64,000 nt of DNA, from IMG/VR virus record IMGVR_UViG_3300034101_005931, positions 1 through 64,000 of that record; one strand, 5' to 3'. The translations under genes were made by a program, and so were the position numbers. This document shows, piece by piece, positions 7,105-41,045 of this stretch; the stretch's first letter is position 1, and each line of letters begins with the position of its first letter. The DNA is from a virus. The notes under the pieces are model-generated. The model did no database searches. It was not told the origin of the DNA and saw only the letters and a program-made list of their open reading frames with translations.

Positions 7105-9414
7105 TTATATTACAATATATAATACTCCTGTTTCTTGAACAACAGGTAAAGCAGAAACAGCTAAGATACTAGTAACTGCACTGGTTCCGGGAACTGTTGT
7201 GGTGTTAGTGGTTACTGCTCTTCTGCCAGCACTAAATATTGTACTTGAAGCACTAACTGTTCCATTAACTGTTAAGTTACCTGTAAGAGTGCCCCCAGCA
7301 AGAGGTAATAAAGTTGCTGTAGCAGAAGCAACATTAGTCTTATAAGAATCAAAGTCTGTATTAGTGGTAAAAGAACTAGAAGCACTTTGATAAGCTGTCG
7401 TAACATTATAAGCTTGATTCCATTGGGTTGAATCTCCGTGTTGAGAGGTGCTAACCGTTCCAACAACAGTCAAAGTGCTATTAGGATTTATTGTACCGAT
7501 TCCAACCAATCCATCAGAATTTATAACCAGTCTTTCTGTCGGTATAGTATTCCCTGAAGTTGTTGTCGAAAAAGACAATCTACCTGGGACAGAACTTAAT
7601 GCAACAGACGGAGTCTTATCAACAAAAACATTTATATCTGCTGCTGTATATGTATTTCTTGTAAAACTAGTAGATGCTGAAGAAAGATACCCAGTAAATG
7701 TTATTCCGCCCAATCTATCATTATTTTGAATAGTTAATGGGTCTGTCAAATTTCCTCTACTTTTTTGAAAGCGAATATTATTACTAATAGCTCCGCTGTT
7801 GCTAGATCTATTCATTAGTATATTCCCGTTATGTTCTGCTTCAGAAGATCCAAACTGTGAATATAATTGAATACCCACAAAAGGATTAATGTCTGAAAAT
7901 CCTTCCGGTAGAGCGCCCCCAATAACCTGACCACTTACTAACAATTTATTCTTAAAGGTCGAAAAAGCATTAACTTCTAAAGAAGATATTAAAACGTTAT
8001 TAGTAGAAAGGTAATTTGTAACTGTGGGTAAAATTTCAGCAGACTCTTCCCAAAATGCTGAATTACTCTGAACGGTGGTATAAGCTTGATTCCACTGAGT
8101 AGAATTGCCTACGTTATCATAAATTGTATTAGATGCACTTATTTCACCATTTACTGTAAAGTCTTTATTTGGGGTACTTGTTTTTACACCAACATTTGGA
8201 AAAGATCCAGTGTTTCCCCCAACATGCAATACTTCTACATCAGAGTCAATATCATAGAATGAAGCAATATCTCCATCTCCGTTATTACCTACCCATATGG
8301 CTGGTCCAGAACCAATATGAACAACACTCAAAGCACTTGTAGTAGAAAACACTGTATTAGCAAATGTTGTAGTGCCTGTAGCTGATATATTACCCCAAAC
8401 TGTTAAGTTGTTATTAATTCTTGTTTCTCCGGATATTATCCCGCCTGTTAAAGGTAAGAAATTAGCATGGGTGTAATTTATTGCTGTATTTGATGCTAAA
8501 TTCCATTGGGTGGAGTTTCCTTCTTGAGCATATACCACACCTGTTGCAGAAATGTTACCCGAAACTGTTAATCTTTCATTTGGAAGAACATTTCCAAAGC
8601 TAAAATTACCCACAGAATCTATTGTTCCTCTTTCTGCACTAGCTGTAAAAAACTTTAAGCTACCGGTATTCATAACATCTAAAATTAAATTACCTGTACC
8701 TCTGTGCCGAATATAAGAGTTTGCGTTTGGACCTGTATCTTCTCTGAGAATTCTAGTTCCAAAATCAAGATGTACAGCATCCCCAATGAGATCAACATAA
8801 GAATTTCCATTACCTGTTCTTCCTGTTCCGATTTCAATAAATCTTGTTTCTGTACCAGTTTCTCTTAAATTAATATTCCCATCTACAGTTAATCTTTCAG
8901 TTACTCTGCTATCATTATTTGCTGTTCCGATTCCTACAAAACCGCTTGAGAGAATGTTAATTCTGGTTGTATTGTTTGTTTCTAATCTAAAATTAAAAGC
9001 ATCATTTGTACCTATTGTTGTAATGGCGCCTCTTGTATTTCCTCCTGCTAAAATTGTATTTGCAGAAGCTTGACTTGTTGCAGTAGAGGCAGCTTGCCAA
9101 AAACCTGATGCTTCTTGATATATTGTGGTAGGTAAAAGTGTTGCTGTAGCAGAAGCAACATTAGTTTTATAAGAATCAAAGTCTGTATTTGCTGTAAATG
9201 AAGATAAAGAAACGGTATTACCAGAAGTTATAGAAAGATTTTTAGAATTTTGATCAAATAAAAGAGTCTGATTGTCTGAATCTTGTACAAGATCGATTAT
9301 TTGTTTTACAGTTGCTTTTAATTCTTCAGACCCATCCTCTTTATACCCCACAATATAATCTCCTGTAGTAAGAGGTGTTGCTGTTGAAAATTGTGTAAAT
9401 TTTTTTGTAGCCAT
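7105..9414 (-). CDS. large tail-fibre protein
   Basis: 769 residues. Begins MATKKFTQFSTATPLTTGDYIVGYK, an N-terminal domain shared by many marine phage fibres, then repeated beta segments alternating with phrases of the type VGNSTQWNQAY and GNISATG, and LTVNG/RLTV motifs typical of trimeric fibre shafts. The phrase TNTDFDSYKTNVASATATLLP occurs twice (near residues 75 and 690). A late box AATAAATA (9421-9428) is 6 nt upstream of ATG. No enzymatic or S74 chaperone motif is seen at the C terminus. Confidence 0.8.
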   Translation of the reverse strand: MATKKFTQFSTATPLTTGDYIVGYKEDGSEELKATVKQIIDLVQDSDNQTLLFDQNSKNLSITSGNTVSLSSFTANTDFDSYKTNVASATATLLPTTIYQEASGFWQAASTATSQASANTILAGGNTRGAITTIGTNDAFNFRLETNNTTRINILSSGFVGIGTANNDSRVTERLTVDGNINLRETGTETRFIEIGTGRTGNGNSYVDLIGDAVHLDFGTRILREDTGPNANSYIRHRGTGNLILDVMNTGSLKFFTASAERGTIDSVGNFSFGNVLPNERLTVSGNISATGVVYAQEGNSTQWNLASNTAINYTHANFLPLTGGIISGETRINNNLTVWGNISATGTTTFANTVFSTTSALSVVHIGSGPAIWVGNNGDGDIASFYDIDSDVEVLHVGGNTGSFPNVGVKTSTPNKDFTVNGEISASNTIYDNVGNSTQWNQAYTTVQSNSAFWEESAEILPTVTNYLSTNNVLISSLEVNAFSTFKNKLLVSGQVIGGALPEGFSDINPFVGIQLYSQFGSSEAEHNGNILMNRSSNSGAISNNIRFQKSRGNLTDPLTIQNNDRLGGITFTGYLSSASTSFTRNTYTAADINVFVDKTPSVALSSVPGRLSFSTTTSGNTIPTERLVINSDGLVGIGTINPNSTLTVVGTVSTSQHGDSTQWNQAYNVTTAYQSASSSFTTNTDFDSYKTNVASATATLLPLAGGTLTGNLTVNGTVSASSTIFSAGRRAVTTNTTTVPGTSAVTSILAVSALPVVQETGVLYIVI
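7313..9189. repeat. 50-bp direct repeat inside the large fibre gene
   Basis: GTTGCTGTAGCAGAAGCAAC... at 7313-7362 and 9140-9189, 49 of 50 bases identical; encodes the repeated shaft phrase DSYKTNVASATATLL. Can recombine and shorten the fibre. Confidence 0.85.
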
Positions 9415-21673: not shown

Positions 21674-21880
21674 ATGTATACGACAAGATTATCATTCAAA
21701 GGCAATAATATGGAAGTTGGTATCAAAACCCTTTGGACCAACGATGGTGAAGATCATTATGATTTAGAAATTCGTTCAAAGAAAAGAATCTCTGGTCATG
21801 ACTTTCAAGCTTTAAGAAACTATCTTCAAGAAGAAGGTTATATTGAAGCAGCACGAGAATGGAATAAAAATCTTGTTTAA
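21674..21880 (+). CDS. hypothetical protein inside the tRNA array
   Basis: 68 residues. Contains NMEVGIKTLWTNDGEDHYDLEIRSKK and a helical acidic segment. A TATAAT box (21660-21665) is 8 nt before ATG 21674; an internal ATG at 21710 is the alternative start. No domain recognised. It separates three tRNAs from the structured region and the rest of the array. Confidence 0.6.
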   Translation: MYTTRLSFKGNNMEVGIKTLWTNDGEDHYDLEIRSKKRISGHDFQALRNYLQEEGYIEAAREWNKNLV

Positions 21881-22215
21881 CGATCTGGCCGTAGTGGTTT
21901 CCAGATCAGGGTGGAATCTCTTTGCCTGTTAGTGTGTTAGGAGACCCATCTGTGCTAGACGAGCTAGGCTACATAAAGCTACGACTCTATGCATTTAGTT
22001 TAACACAGGCTGAGGACGGAAGTACTGGCTCCATGCCGGGCTCCGTTGAGGAAGGGACAATTCCTAGGACAAAACCCTTCACATACTAAATATTTTAGTA
22101 GACCCGGGACGCCTCTCGATGATGTCGATGCGCACCGTTCGGGTGATCTAGCGTGATAACAAAGCCAGTACACATTAAGTTGGGACGCCTTCGGTTTCTG
22201 GTACAAAAACACGCC
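21881..22215 (+). ncRNA. candidate structured RNA, ~330 nt
   Basis: No plausible gene between the stop at 21880 and tRNA-Ile. Richer in G+C than its flanks and full of complementary arms: GATCTGG/CCAGATC (21882-21888 with 21901-21907), ACGGA/TCCGT (22016-22020 with 22032-22036), GAAGGG/CCCTTC (22041-22046 with 22075-22080), a TACTAAA/TTTAGTA hairpin next to it, and a long-range GTACTGGC/GCCAGTAC pairing (22022-22029 with 22164-22171). No RNase P, 6S or tmRNA signature found. Strand assumed from the flanking tRNAs. Confidence 0.6.
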
Positions 22216-22219
22216 CTTT

Positions 22220-22290
22220 CCCTCCTTAGTTCAGTAGTAGAACGGTTCTTTGATAAGGAACAGAGCATGGGGCGGTACCATGAGGAGGGA
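22220..22290 (+). tRNA. tRNA-Ile (GAT), non-canonical T-loop
   Basis: Acceptor CCCTCCT/AGGAGGG, U8-A9, D-stem GTTC/GAAC, anticodon loop TTGATAA, T-stem CATGG/CCATG with loop GGCGGTA instead of TTCGA-type; D-loop AGTAGTA lacks GG. CCA encoded at 22291-22293. Confidence 0.85.
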
Positions 22291-22298
22291 CCATTTTA

Positions 22299-22386
22299 GG
22301 GCAGATAGCTGAGTTGGTCTAAGGCGCCCGACTTGAAATCGGAAGTGGGGGAAACTTCACCATGGGTTCGAATCTTACTCTGCCCG
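22299..22386 (+). tRNA. tRNA-Ser (TGA)
   Basis: Acceptor GGGCAGA/TCTGCCC, anticodon loop CTTGAAA, long variable arm with GTGGGGGAAACTTCAC, canonical T-loop; CCA at 22387-22389. A second Ser(TGA) gene is at 28195. Confidence 0.9.
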
Positions 22387-22397
22387 CCATTTTAACC

Positions 22398-22469
22398 GCC
22401 CTTGTAGTTCTAATAGCAAAACAGTTCCTTGGTAAGGATCGGTAGACGGAGCGTAACCGTCCTGGGGCT
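22398..22469 (+). tRNA. tRNA-Thr (GGT), non-canonical T-loop
   Basis: Acceptor GCCCTTG/CTGGGGC with one mismatch, anticodon loop TTGGTAA, T-stem GACGG/CCGTC closing loop AGCGTAA; D-loop lacks GG. Confidence 0.8.
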
Positions 22470-22485
22470 TTTAAATAATTTTAAC

Positions 22486-22558
22486 TGCGGGTTAGAACTC
22501 TGGTGAGTTCAGGTGTCTCATAAGCATCTATAGGAGGATTCGATTTCCTCACCCGCTA
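22486..22558 (+). tRNA. tRNA-Met (CAT), probable initiator
   Basis: Acceptor TGCGGGT/ACCCGCT leaves a U1-U72 mismatch, and the D-stem GAAC/GTTC gives A11-U24: two initiator features. The three G-C pairs of the anticodon stem are absent (GGTGT/GCATC). Anticodon loop CTCATAA, canonical TTCGATT T-loop. CCA not encoded. Confidence 0.8.
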
Positions 22559-22566
22559 TTCTTTAT

Positions 22567-22647
22567 ATGTCCGCTCACAAGTGGGATTGTACAGAGTCTC
22601 CAAAACTCTCGTCGTTTGACTAAGGGGTTCGATTCCTCACGGACATG
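22567..22647 (+). tRNA. tRNA-Trp (CCA) with extended variable arm
   Basis: Acceptor ATGTCCG/CGGACAT, anticodon stem AGAGT/ACTCT perfect with loop CTCCAAA. The variable region is ~13-14 nt with a small GTC/GAC hairpin, where 4-5 nt is normal for Trp. D-arm is short. CCA at 22648-22650. Confidence 0.72.
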
Positions 22648-22654
22648 CCATTTA

Positions 22655-22725
22655 GCCGCAGTAACATAAAAGTAATGTGTTAGTCTTCCAAACTAAAGAA
22701 CTCGGGGCAGTACCGTGCTGCGGCA
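22655..22725 (+). tRNA. tRNA-Gly (TCC), non-canonical T-loop
   Basis: Acceptor GCCGCAG/CTGCGGC, D-stem ACAT/ATGT with loop AAAAGTA (no GG), anticodon stem TTAGT/ACTAA with loop CTTCCAA, T-stem CTCGG/CCGTG with loop GGCAGTA. Confidence 0.83.
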
Positions 22726-22732
22726 TATTTCG

Positions 22733-22804
22733 GGAGTTGTAGCTCAGAGGAAGAGCAGTTGGCTTTTAACCAATTGGCCGTGGGTTCGACCCCCACCGAC
22801 TCCA
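22733..22804 (+). tRNA. tRNA-Lys (TTT)
   Basis: Acceptor GGAGTTG/CGACTCC, D-stem GCTC/GAGC, anticodon loop CTTTTAA, canonical GTTCGAC T-loop. Confidence 0.92.
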
Positions 22805-22809
22805 CTTAT

Positions 22810-22880
22810 GGTTCGTTAGTATAATAGCAGTACACTAGATTGTCACTCTAGTAGCAGGGGAGCATAACCCCTACGAACCG
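22810..22880 (+). tRNA. tRNA-Asp (GTC), non-canonical T-loop
   Basis: Acceptor GGTTCGT/ACGAACC, anticodon stem CTAGA/TCTAG with loop TTGTCAC, T-stem AGGGG/CCCCT closing loop AGCATAA; D-loop without GG. CCA at 22881-22883. Confidence 0.87.
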
Positions 22881-22887
22881 CCATTTC

Positions 22888-22959
22888 GGATCCTTGGTGA
22901 AATGGATATCACGTAACGCTACGGACGTTAAATTCTGAGTTCGACCCTTGGAGGATCCA
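22888..22959 (+). tRNA. tRNA-Arg (ACG)
   Basis: Acceptor GGATCCT/AGGATCC, anticodon loop CTACGGA (A34, a target for A-to-I editing by TadA), canonical GTTCGAC T-loop. Confidence 0.9.
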
Positions 22960-22970
22960 TAAGTATTTTT

Positions 22971-23360
22971 ATGAAGTGGTGGCCTACTATACTAGTAGCA
23001 GTGGGTTTGTTTTTTTATTTTGAATATTATTCAGTTCGTGTGCCACTTAAATATGAAATGCTGAATGACGGCTGTCTAATACAATCTTTATATTTTCAAC
23101 AAGTTATACAAGCTCAGCAAATATTAGATGAATACATGTGGACAAGAGTTCTTGCAATTCAATTTTATGGAATAATAGAAGGACATGCTGTAACTGTTTT
23201 TGTCTATAAAAATATAACGTGGGTTTATGATCCTAATCGCGGATCTTTCCCTGTAGCGCACTTTTCACTTTATAACCCATTAATGATCGCGGAACTTGCT
23301 TTTCCAAAACTTTCAATAAAAAAAGCATACTATATTGAACCAACATTATTATTGCATTAA
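22971..23360 (+). CDS. membrane-anchored protein, possible papain-like fold
   Basis: 129 residues. N-terminal hydrophobic helix (ILVAVGLFFYF) as a signal anchor. The rest has a Cys in NDGCLIQSLYF near residue 35, then IIEGHAVTVFVYKNITWVYDPNRGSF with a His and a following D/N, the C-H-D order of papain-like and C39-type peptidases. Catalysis is not proven. Begins 12 nt after tRNA-Arg. Confidence 0.5.
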   Translation: MKWWPTILVAVGLFFYFEYYSVRVPLKYEMLNDGCLIQSLYFQQVIQAQQILDEYMWTRVLAIQFYGIIEGHAVTVFVYKNITWVYDPNRGSFPVAHFSLYNPLMIAELAFPKLSIKKAYYIEPTLLLH

Positions 23361-23380
23361 CTGAAGAAATCCTCTATTAT
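23352..23380 (+). promoter_or_regulatory. sigma70-type promoter for the exonuclease gene
   Basis: TTGCAT, 17-nt spacer, TATTAT (23375-23380); ATG 23387 begins 6 nt later, so the mRNA should be leaderless. Confidence 0.75.
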
Positions 23381-23386
23381 ATAGCA

Positions 23387-24256
23387 ATGAAACGTCTCAT
23401 TATAGATGGCAACAATCTTGTTCATAGAACTTTTTGGGTTGCTAAAAACCAGCCAATTTATAACGAGCACTTCCACATTCATCTTTTTTTGACGAGTGTT
23501 AAAAAATACGTAGCTAAGTATCAGCCTAACGTAACCTACTGTGCATGGGACGAGAAAGCAGACTATCAAGTTAATAAGCGCAAAGCTTTGCTTGAAGGCT
23601 ATAAAGGTAATCGTGATCAGGAACGCAATAAAGATGTTCATACAAAGAATTACATTATTAAAGAGATGCTTGGTTATCTCGGTATTAATAGCGTGTGTCC
23701 CTATGCATATGAAGCAGATGATGTGATTGCTATCTTTTGTAATGAATACAAGGACGATCAAAAAGTCATTATTACTGTCGACAGAGACCTTTGTCAACTT
23801 ATTGATAAGAATACAGTAGTTTTTGATCCGATTCGTAAAGTAGAATTTAATTTAGCAAACTTCGAAGAAGTATTAAAATGTAAAAAGGAGCACTTCGTAA
23901 AAATTAAAGCTCTGCAAGGTGACAAATCTGATAACGTTCCAGGCATTAAAGGCTTTGGAAAAGTTAAGATAGAAAAATATTTGGCCGGTGAAGTCGAAAT
24001 GAGTGCAGAAGAGCTAGCTCAATATGCACATAATCTTTTATTATTAGATTTGAGAAACACTCTGCAAGATGAAACAGAATGTTCTTATGTAAAAGAACAG
24101 TTTAAACAACCAGTTGAATTCAAATTTAGTCAGTTTAAAAAGAGATGTGAGGAGTTAGGGTTTCATCAGATTTTAAAGAATATAAATCAATGGTATGATT
24201 TGTTCTTTTTAAGAAGTGATCAAATCCGTACACTTACGGATTTTCTAAAATTTTAG
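23387..24256 (+). CDS. 5'-3' exonuclease / flap endonuclease
   Basis: 289 residues. FEN/PolA-exo fold: IIDGNNLVHRTFW at the N terminus, EADDVIAIF near 110, ITVDRDLCQLI near 130, and the helix-hairpin-helix KALQGDKSDNVPGIKGFGKVK near 170-190. The acidic cluster for two metals is intact. Equivalent to T4 RNase H: removes RNA primers and processes 5' flaps in replication. Leaderless promoter just upstream. Confidence 0.9.
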   Translation: MKRLIIDGNNLVHRTFWVAKNQPIYNEHFHIHLFLTSVKKYVAKYQPNVTYCAWDEKADYQVNKRKALLEGYKGNRDQERNKDVHTKNYIIKEMLGYLGINSVCPYAYEADDVIAIFCNEYKDDQKVIITVDRDLCQLIDKNTVVFDPIRKVEFNLANFEEVLKCKKEHFVKIKALQGDKSDNVPGIKGFGKVKIEKYLAGEVEMSAEELAQYAHNLLLLDLRNTLQDETECSYVKEQFKQPVEFKFSQFKKRCEELGFHQILKNINQWYDLFFLRSDQIRTLTDFLKF

Positions 24257-24279
24257 ATAAATATATAAAACACTTTAAA

Positions 24280-24354
24280 CGGGCAGTCGCCTAGTGGCCA
24301 TGGCACCTGCTTTGGGAGCAGGAATGACCGGAGGTTCGAGTCCTCTCTGCCCGA
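24280..24354 (+). tRNA. tRNA-Pro (TGG)
   Basis: Acceptor CGGGCAG/CTGCCCG, anticodon stem CCTGC/GCAGG with loop TTTGGGA, canonical T-loop. Starts 23 nt after the exonuclease stop. Confidence 0.92.
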
Positions 24355-24374
24355 TACTTTATCTCCCGATATTA

Positions 24375-24446
24375 CGCTGCTTAGCTGAGATAGATTAGCA
24401 CGAGTCTGAAGAACTTGATAGGTTGGAGCGTTACCAACAGCAGCGG
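24375..24446 (+). tRNA. tRNA-Phe (GAA), non-canonical T-loop
   Basis: Acceptor CGCTGCT/AGCAGCG (7 perfect pairs), U8-A9, D-stem GCT/AGC with a GG-less loop, anticodon stem CGAGT/ACTTG with loop CTGAAGA, T-stem GTTGG/CCAAC with loop AGCGTTA; CCA encoded at 24447-24449. Easily missed because the TTCGA motif is absent. Confidence 0.85.
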
Positions 24447-25339: not shown

Positions 25340-25447
25340 ATGAAATACATCATCCTATCATTATTCCTTATGCTCGGTGTTACTGCATGTGCATCTAAAA
25401 AACAATGCACTCCATGCAATAAAACTGTTGTTTGTAAGGTTAAATAA
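25340..25447 (+). CDS. very small lipoprotein
   Basis: 35 residues. Signal peptide MKYIILSLFLMLG then lipobox V-T-A-C at residue 17, leaving an 19-residue Cys- and Lys-rich mature peptide (KKQCTPCNK). Own promoter and a following hairpin suggest a monocistronic unit. Candidate o-spanin, entry-exclusion or superinfection lipoprotein; the role is open. Confidence 0.7.
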   Translation: MKYIILSLFLMLGVTACASKKQCTPCNKTVVCKVK

Positions 25448-25453
25448 TACAAC

Positions 25454-25540
25454 GGGTTAATCTTGTAAATGGTGCCGACATTTCCACATACGAGTGGTAG
25501 AGATTAGTCCTGAGACGTCGCGGGTAAACGTCTCACTTTT
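25454..25540 (+). ncRNA. three-way-junction RNA candidate with terminator hairpin
   Basis: Outer stem TAATCT/AGATTA (25458-25463 with 25501-25506) encloses two hairpins, AAATG/CATTT with a 7-nt loop (25467-25483) and CCAC/GTGG with a 6-nt loop (25484-25497). Then a perfect 8-bp hairpin TGAGACGT/ACGTCTCA (25511-25535) and CTTTT. May be the 3' UTR of the lipoprotein mRNA or a small RNA. Confidence 0.45.
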
Positions 25541-40581: not shown

Positions 40582-41034
40582 GGGGGTGTACTGGTTTCGA
40601 CCTGAAACAGAAACTAAAAACGCATGTAGAGGTTGGTCAGCTGGCCTCTTAAAAAGCAGACCGAAAAATTAAGAGCAGATAATACTGACTCCATCTTGGC
40701 TGAAGCCGAGTACATATTCAACAACGCTTCCGAGTTTCTCGGAGAGGTTGAAGAAGAGTATCTCTTAGCAGCTTAAGGTCCTTTAACTCAGACCCTCTAA
40801 GAGTTAATTGATAACAGAGGAAGTTAGATTGTTGGTAGTTCTAATGTAACAACAAAATATCAACCGTATATAGATTGCGATAATGTCTATAGGCAGACTA
40901 AAAACTCGGTTAGTGTCACCAAGCAGCCTAAAGTCTTCGTTACCGTATGGTGGCTGAAATGCTGAAGATACTAAAACATGTAGACCTTTTAGTCTATGGA
41001 TTCAGGGACAGGGGTTCAACTCCCCTCATCTCCA
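40582..41034 (+). ncRNA. ssrA: tmRNA (ssrA)
   Basis: 453 nt. 5' acceptor GGGGGTG pairs with 3' CATCTCC (G3-U70, alanine identity), T-arm GGGGTTCAACTCCCC, and the conserved GGTTTCGACC next to the 5' end. Resume codon GCA at 40675 follows the A-rich AAAAATTAAGA. The tag frame runs 33 sense codons (40675-40773), starting ADNTDSILAE and ending EEYLLAA, then TAA. The 3' end lacks an encoded CCA. It rescues stalled ribosomes and adds the -LAA degradation tag. Confidence 0.95.
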
Positions 41035-41045
41035 CTTTTTAACTA

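Follow-up and report, generated by a model that had tools for sequence, protein, structure and literature searches.

A Probably Compensated Alternative Elbow in tRNA Genes of a Viral Contig, Other Phages, and SAR11 Bacteria

Introduction

Accounts of tRNA treat G18, U55 (as pseudouridine, Psi55), and the U54-A58 pair as all but universal. Psi55 in particular is described as the most universally conserved of tRNA modifications (PMC7912444). Among the described departures from this elbow, eukaryotic tRNA-Ala (IGC) carries A54/A58 together with R15/A48 and initiator tRNA carries A54/A58, pairs reported as unobserved in bacteria or archaea, with no change at 18-55 among those listed (PMC7566577). 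tRNA-Pyl and type II mitochondrial tRNAs are without the G18-G19 or T-Psi-C motif (PMC7609411). These latter tRNAs lose the G19-C56 pair as well, and the D-loop of tRNA-Pyl is shortened. Suppressor tRNAs with randomized D- and T-loops, selected in vivo in the Steinberg laboratory, reportedly function with unusual 54-58 pairs, G-G among them; these are products of laboratory selection, whereas the alternative-elbow tRNAs considered here are natural genes.

The tRNAs described here share with canonical bacterial elongator tRNA (RF00005) the cloverleaf, U8, mostly A14, A21, U33, the 7-nt T-loop, G53-C61, G19-C56, and a discriminator base that follows isotype. They differ from it in having A18-G55 in place of G18-Psi55, and A54-U58 or G54-G58 with A60 in place of U54-A58 with Y60; with G at 55 and a purine at 54, they can carry neither Psi55 (made by TruB) nor T54 (TrmA/TrmFO). 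As in eukaryotic tRNA-Ala and initiator tRNA, 54-58 is exchanged for another pair, in tRNA-Ala along with a changed 15-48; however, the present tRNAs have G at 55 and either A-U or G-G at 54-58, and A54/A58 is absent. Unlike tRNA-Pyl and the type II mitochondrial tRNAs, they have a normal D-arm and a G19-C56 pair. We found no earlier description of an A18-G55 elbow in the open literature searched, a scope outside which most subscription papers fall.

Results

Five Alternative-Elbow tRNA Genes in One Array

The window, by which we mean the whole 64,000-nucleotide stretch analyzed (positions 1 to 64,000 of the IMG/VR virus record IMGVR_UViG_3300034101_005931), contains five cloverleaf tRNA genes with an alternative elbow:

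22220..22290, plus strand: tRNA-Ile(GAT); D-loop AGTAGTA at 22233-22239 (A18 at 22236, G19 at 22237); T-loop GGCGGTA at 22271-22277 (G54-G58, G55, C56); CCA encoded at 22291-22293
22398..22469, plus strand: tRNA-Thr(GGT); D-loop TAATAGCA at 22411-22418 (A18 at 22415, G19 at 22416); T-loop AGCGTAA at 22450-22456 (A54-U58); no encoded CCA
22655..22725, plus strand: tRNA-Gly(TCC); D-loop AAAAGTA at 22668-22674 (A18 at 22671, G19 at 22672); T-loop GGCAGTA at 22706-22712 (G54-G58); no encoded CCA
22810..22880, plus strand: tRNA-Asp(GTC); D-loop AATAGCA at 22823-22829 (A18 at 22826, G19 at 22827); T-loop AGCATAA at 22861-22867 (A54-U58); CCA encoded; no other Asp tRNA found across the 86-kb record
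24375..24446, plus strand: tRNA-Phe(GAA); D-loop AGATAGAT at 24388-24395 (A18 at 24392, G19 at 24393); T-loop AGCGTTA at 24427-24433 (A54-U58); CCA encoded; no other Phe tRNA found across the 86-kb record

The five tRNAs and T-loops named in the original prediction are thus all present, as cloverleafs of 7/4/5/5 bp with standard spacing in which 18-21 of 21 helix pairs form (the 4-bp D-stem has one mismatch in Thr). Positions in the two 8-nt D-loops (Thr and Phe) were taken from the cloverleaf; MAFFT misaligns these. The prediction also held that the D-loop GG was absent, which is true of G18 but not of G19: all five read A18-G19 and keep the partner C56, and with G19-C56 retained, loss of the entire D-T contact can be rejected. 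What changes is the 18-55 pair, from G-U to A-G in all five, and the T-loop closing pair U54-A58, which is replaced by A54-U58 in Thr, Asp, and Phe and by G54-G58 in Ile and Gly. An RGCRKWA loop in a 5-bp stem (or one with 4 Watson-Crick pairs) occurs eight times on the two strands of the 64-kb window, as the five tRNAs and three weaker hairpins that are not tRNAs. The alternative elbow is found in 5 of the window's 27 tRNAs and, as had been claimed, canonical and alternative tRNAs stand side by side in one array, several canonical members of which likewise have no encoded CCA. The tmRNA of the window has a canonical T-loop.

Positions 18 and 55 Change Together

The changes in D-loop and T-loop had been noted to go together, and in unrelated phages this coupling is nearly exceptionless, the pair concerned being 18-55; nor are the loops of homologues random. 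The scans favored genes with an encoded CCA and, among the matches listed from viral contigs, A18-G19 was found in 111 of 111 unique tRNAs when G55-C56 was fixed and 18/19 left free, and G55 in 141 of 142 in the converse scan (A18-G19 fixed, 55 free). Among the matches listed from bacterial genomes, the forward scan gave A18-G19 in all 69 true cloverleafs and also 23 chance matches, without a cloverleaf and variable at 18/19; in such chance matches no more than 6-13 of the 21 pairs form, and a chance origin was rejected on these grounds. When the 544 non-redundant viral tRNAs with a 7-nt D-loop among the matches listed were sorted by 18.55, 389 had G.U, 140 A.G, 12 G.C, and 3 another combination, with no instance of A.U or G.G. 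Hundreds of the phage tRNAs among the matches listed carry this A18-G55 change. Covariation was ranked in a less biased bystander set, composed of tRNAs not used for fetching, and placed 54-58, 18-55, and 19-56 at ranks 21, 22, and 26 of 2145 column pairs, below pairs that are nearly all helical.

The 15-48 swap (G-G or A-A) suggested by the five proved not to be general, the class having mostly A15 with C48 or A48. A search of isolate phages with three further alternative-elbow tRNAs yielded no more than distant tRNA-Val matches in Pseudomonas phages, and actinophage "tRNA-Glu" matches to the window's Asp gene had a canonical elbow on inspection. Across 398 Pseudomonadota genomes, the one match that proved to be a tRNA came from SAR11; the others were non-tRNA sequences at the level of a reversed-pattern control.

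Repeated Origin within Isotypes and a Separate 54-58 Module

The alternative elbow is present in all 17 isotypes examined, with U33 in the anticodon loops. Discriminator bases follow isotype among the viral members (Ile A 41/41, Val A 22/22, Cys U 8/8, Trp G 8/8, His C 10/11, Gly U 31/33). Among the matches listed, 238 of 253 alternative-elbow tRNAs are nearer to canonical tRNAs of their own isotype, which rejects a single mobile tRNA spreading by anticodon change; the elbow instead arose many times within isotypes. Close pairs differing by the swap can be found, both in Ile (D-loop/T-loop AATAGTA/AGCGTTA in locus L053 vs. AAAGGTA/ATCGTTA in L234) and in Phe (AGATAGAT/AGCGTTA in the window vs. 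AGATGGAT/ATCGTTA in T5-like phages). This tRNA-Phe of T5-like and T4-like phages, a homologue of the window's, likewise has A54-U58 and A60 but retains G18-U55, whereas the tRNA-Phe of SAR11 combines A18-G55 with a normal U54-A58. Because each shows one change alone, the 54-58 change is a module separate from 18-55.

Essential tRNAs of SAR11 and the Presence of TruB

In a 1,320,649-bp chromosome (G011) of the ocean bacterium SAR11, A18-G55 is found in the sole tRNA-His, the sole tRNA-Phe, and tRNA-Val(GAC), which lie beside hisD, aroA, rpoD, and other core genes; a search of this genome and a second (G005) for another tRNA-His found none besides the alternative-elbow copy. Essential chromosomal tRNAs of SAR11 thus carry the A18-G55 elbow. 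Over 98 genomes of the SAR11 order, the alternative elbow occurs in 64 of 80 genomes without TruB vs. 1 of 18 with it, an association whose cases belong to one clade and are not independent. Beyond SAR11, TruB is present in 16 of 21 bacterial genomes with such a tRNA (contigs that may be phage), and loss of TruB as a general cause is unsupported there. Nor is its loss required, because T5-like phages (DT57C and HildyBeyeler (Bas33), for example) carry one alternative-elbow tRNA, a tRNA-Met with T-loop GGCAGTA found in 59 isolate records, while their host E. coli has TruB.

Behavior of Standard Scanners

The concern that scanners could miss the five is partly borne out. ARAGORN detects Asp but none of Ile, Thr, Gly, and Phe, whereas the Rfam tRNA model (RF00005, gathering threshold 29 bits) reports Ile (45.1), Gly (46.9), and Asp (53.2) and leaves Thr and Phe unreported. 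The annotation gap is systematic: besides these four of five, ARAGORN overlooks the only tRNA-His of the two SAR11 genomes examined, and the T5-like tRNA-Met lacks annotation in nearly all listed records.

Discussion

We consider it very probable, judging from the gene sequences, that these tRNAs function in translation and that compensatory substitutions have re-encoded their elbow. The exposed Watson-Crick pair G19-C56 is retained; the intercalating contact G18-U(Psi)55 gives way to a predicted A18-G55 contact, and the closing pair U54-A58, along with Y60, to A54-U58 or G54-G58 with A60. Other bases would thereby keep the loop-loop lock, and hence the L shape, and the elbow is predicted to fold without its two commonest modifications; the five window genes would be transcribed and their products charged. 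The original reading of a distinct elbow and not decay is strongly upheld by the coupled changes and by the stems and discriminators kept. That phage tRNAs show the elbow repeatedly, and that SAR11 has it in essential tRNAs, argues for an alternative that works in place of a contact long held fixed.

What drove the change is a separate question. A plausible driver is release from reliance on host modification, whether in the course of infection or once TruB had been lost; neutral compensatory drift, which concerns the cause and not the structure, is about as likely, and we put it somewhat short of an even chance. On that account phage tRNAs are briefly used and loosely constrained, and leaving U55 gains nothing. 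Every elbow module varies, 19-56 included (compensated A-U, C-G, and U-A forms were found), the elbow has many origins in many isotypes, and canonical and alternative tRNAs are neighbors in one array, all as drift would have it. However, A18-G55 with G19-C56 (n = 48 in the bystander set) is commoner than compensated 19-56 swaps with G18-U55 (n = 25), despite needing a purine-purine contact, and in SAR11 the alternative elbow is concentrated in genomes without TruB.

It is unlikely that the elbow serves to evade a nuclease or modification enzyme of host or phage that reads G18, U54, or U55, such that phage tRNAs survive while those of the host are cut. Several defense systems do cleave tRNAs and phages respond with tRNAs of their own, as PMC12409363 describes in outline. 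From their letters, the present tRNAs should also be refractory to enzymes acting at 54 and 55, but this analysis tied no elbow-reading defense to these loci, only 5 of the window's 27 tRNAs are changed, and SAR11 cells have the same elbow in essential tRNAs of their own.

Some tRNAs without G18-G19 and the usual T-loop are non-translational. A role outside translation, for instance as tRNA-like decoys or processing signals, with which the unencoded CCA in two of the five would fit, is nevertheless very improbable given the U33 anticodon loops, the isotype-specific discriminators, the sole His and Phe tRNAs of SAR11, and the several canonical tRNAs of the array that are also without CCA. Decaying pseudogenes or sequencing artefacts, to which low or missing scanner scores might point, are extremely improbable given perfect or near-perfect stems, strict loop coupling in unrelated contigs from many samples, and the 59 isolate records of the T5-like Met gene.

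Returning to the re-encoded elbow, we hold it an even question whether a broader statement applies, namely that the elbow is re-encodable in nature, with contacts 18-55, 19-56, and 54-58/60 as modules whose alternative pairings have repeatedly evolved by compensation, mostly in phages, and with A18-G55 as a Psi55-independent elbow that would let phages and TruB-less SAR11 translate without a "universal" modification. A recurring, compensated alternative would reveal the true requirements of the elbow and supply natural covariation for contacts that hardly ever vary. The role of Psi55 and T54, in folding as against other functions, becomes testable, and the elbow could serve the design of tRNAs independent of host modification.

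Five tRNAs with an alternative elbow

The window is part of a virus record of 86,258 bases, and in it ARAGORN finds 23 tRNAs and misses four additional plain cloverleafs. The five tRNAs of the original prediction are present with the T-loops claimed for them, on T-stems of four to five Watson–Crick pairs (positions and pair counts were read throughout with a purpose-written cloverleaf reader).

Alternative-elbow tRNA genes of the window (window positions; gene; D-loop; pair 54–58), from the cloverleaf reading
22220-22290; tRNA-Ile(GAT); AGTAGTA; G-G
22398-22469; tRNA-Thr(GGT); TAATAGCA; A-U
22655-22725; tRNA-Gly(TCC); AAAAGTA; G-G
22810-22880; tRNA-Asp(GTC); AATAGCA; A-U
24375-24446; tRNA-Phe(GAA); AGATAGAT; A-U

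The D-loop GG had been described as absent, which holds for position 18 (A in 5/5) and fails for position 19 (G in 5/5); since G19 and C56, the usual partners, are both kept in all five, the G19–C56 elbow pair is intact. T-loop and D-loop do change together, as had been proposed: in 5/5 genes 18–55 passes from G-U to A-G and 54–58 is also altered, from U-A to A-U (Thr, Asp, Phe) or to G-G (Ile, Gly). No second gene for Asp or for Phe was found in the record, itself a fragment.

Between the tRNAs lie non-coding, structured-looking stretches (21880-22215 and 25440-25540, neither with an Rfam match), exemplified by the hairpin GAGACGT-CGCGGGTAA-ACGTCTC near 25515. The window also carries a tmRNA with a canonical T-loop (40582-41037; Rfam, 121 bits), and this tmRNA-bearing phage record has tRNA genes covering all, or almost all, of the amino acids.

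Covariation of 18–55 among viral tRNAs

We scanned IMG/VR contigs with a tRNA-shaped pattern in which G55, C56 and A60 were fixed and 18, 19, 54, 58 and 59 were free, counting unique tRNAs for which cloverleaf reading across the fetched loci gave 18 or more of the 21 helix pairs; every pattern scan demanded loops of set length and an encoded CCA, and the counts describe the matches listed, not frequencies. A18-G19 accompanies G55-C56 in 111/111 of the matches listed, with 54–58 being A-U in 65, G-G in 36 and other in 10. Conversely, with A18-G19 and C56 fixed and 55 free, G55 occurs in 141 of the 142 matches listed.

A less biased sample is provided by bystanders, tRNAs that lie in the fetched loci but fit no fetching pattern. 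Of these, 602 have a 7-nt D-loop, among them 500 with G18G19/U55C56, 48 with A18G19/G55C56, 17 with G18A19/U55U56 and 12 with G18G19/C55C56, and by mutual information with average-product correction 54–58, 18–55 and 19–56 rank 21, 22 and 26 of 2145 column pairs, outranked nearly exclusively by helix pairs. In a non-redundant viral set of 544, which includes fetched genes and whose proportions are not frequencies, 18.55 is G.U in 389, A.G in 140, G.C in 12 and other in 3, with A.U and G.G found in none. As a rough guide only, the loci having been fetched for 56-variants, G55-C56 occurs in 44/1397 bystanders and 26/203 loci.

G55-C56 is found in 253 among 1809 viral class-I tRNAs, spanning 17/17 examined isotypes, and in these tRNAs the discriminator base tracks isotype (Ile A 41/41, Val A 22/22, Cys U 8/8, Trp G 8/8, Asn G 6/6, His C 10/11, Gly U 31/33). 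The stems of 238/253 are nearer to same-isotype canonical tRNAs than to other-isotype alternative-elbow tRNAs, which argues that the elbow change arose many times, from separate origins.

Separable modules of the elbow

The sequences indicate that 54–58 is a module separate from 18–55. T5-like and T4-like tRNA-Phe, homologous to the window tRNA-Phe, combine D-loop AGATGGAT or AGACGGAT with T-loop ATCGTTA, that is, G18-U55 with A54-U58; relative to the AGATGGAT form, the 18/55 change is the sole addition within the D- and T-loops of the window gene. SAR11 tRNA-Phe is the reverse case, A18-G55 with U54-A58. In viral tRNAs of the fetched loci, purine 54 is accompanied by A60 in 92/93 G55 and 27/28 U55 tRNAs, A60 having been fixed in one fetching pattern. 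Viral G55 tRNAs of these loci mostly have A-U, G-G or the usual U-A at 54–58, and in most purine-54 tRNAs the variable region is 4 nt long and A15 is combined with C48 or A48. Functional G54-G58 was reportedly recovered by the Steinberg laboratory through in vivo selection from randomised D/T loops.

The 19–56 pair also covaries with compensation in viral tRNAs: in scans with 56 fixed and 18/19 free, 18-19 is G-A in 100/100 D-loops for U56, G-C in 23/26 for G56 and G-U in 55/61 for A56, among the matches listed. The exposed pair is thus re-encoded as A19-U56, C19-G56 and U19-A56 beside G19-C56 (IMG/VR loci L158-L377).

An unannotated tRNA-Met with T-loop GGCAGTA is also present in the T5-like phage Bas33, which infects E. 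coli K-12 (8853-8925 of its locus, L007); 59 isolate records match, nearly all of those listed being without annotation there. The copy in the T5-like phage DT57C (L607:201-273) is flanked by tRNA-Pro and by the stable RNA 'rna2H'. Both the Bas33 gene and a window tRNA-Met (22486-22558) have acceptor TGCGGGT/ACCCGCT with 1–72 unpaired, an initiator-like feature.

Alternative elbows in cells

The forward pattern yielded, among the matches listed from bacterial and archaeal genomes, 69 true cloverleafs, A18-G19 in 69/69, several being SAR11 tRNA-His; 23 further matches were chance, non-tRNA hits with 6-13 helix pairs and varied letters at 18-19. In SAR11 genome G005, ARAGORN reports 29 tRNAs, none His, and the thirtieth of 30 tRNA places is an alternative-elbow tRNA-His. 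In SAR11 genome G011 (a single contig of 1,320,649 bp), 32 tRNAs match and ARAGORN reports 31, none His; its tRNA-His, sole tRNA-Phe and tRNA-Val(GAC) each have A18-G55 and adjoin core genes (His/Phe: histidinol dehydrogenase, DUF2948, EPSP synthase and a dCTP deaminase; Val: a sigma-70 factor and MlaC).

SAR11 tRNA-His forms a natural series, with the 18–55 swap perhaps coming before the 54–58 swap: canonical genes (L541-L543) pair AATGGTTA with TTCGATC or TTCAATT, one genome (L603) has the intermediate AATAGTAA/TGCGATT, and the remainder pair AATAGTA or AATAGCA with AGCGTAA or GGCAGAA. Across 398 Pseudomonadota genomes, the pattern with a 7-nt D-loop and 4-nt variable region returned a true tRNA only from a SAR11 genome; outside SAR11-like groups the cellular alternative elbow is rare. 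Clusters of 2-4 such tRNAs on Verrucomicrobia and Saccharibacteria contigs (L437, L439, L452, L436, L445) are possibly prophages or phage contigs.

Proposed structure, modification and cause

Known structures have residue 18 inserted between 57 and 58, with one hydrogen bond to Psi55, and G19–C56 forming a flat face read by the ribosome and other factors (PMC4810234; PMC7912444). The alternative elbow would retain this face, replace the G18–Psi55 lock with a purine–purine contact, A18 touching G55 as the covariation suggests, and rebuild the 54-58-60 base of the T-loop. In this it differs from tRNA-Pyl and the mitochondrial tRNAs that, according to a review of non-canonical tRNAs (PMC7609411), lose the entire motif. 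Eukaryotic tRNA-Ala has A54/A58 with R15/A48, stated as not observed in bacteria or archaea (PMC7566577); the available portions of these two sources contain no description of A18–G55. No description of the class was found in the open literature; subscription journals and preprints lay mostly outside the search, and priority is therefore not established.

With G at 55, and a purine at 54 where so, it follows from the letters that these tRNAs should be without Psi55, and without T54 where 54 is a purine. A search for the Psi55 synthase TruB (matched in 14/14 control genomes) found it in 18 of the 98 SAR11-order genomes (G003-G101; completeness unstated) and not in the other 80. Counting tRNA-readable matches only, alternative-elbow tRNAs occur in 64/80 SAR11-order genomes without TruB vs 1/18 with it (Fisher p 3.7e-9, within one clade whose genomes are not independent). 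Outside SAR11, TruB is present in 16/21 bacterial genomes with an alternative-elbow tRNA contig (one of the 21 is labelled Pelagibacteraceae, and some of these contigs may be phage) and in E. coli, a control genome and host of T5-like phages; loss of Psi55 is therefore not required, and is plausibly a setting for the alternative elbow. A plausible advantage of the alternative elbow is that it makes these tRNAs independent of host modification; as a cause, neutral compensatory drift has about the same likelihood.
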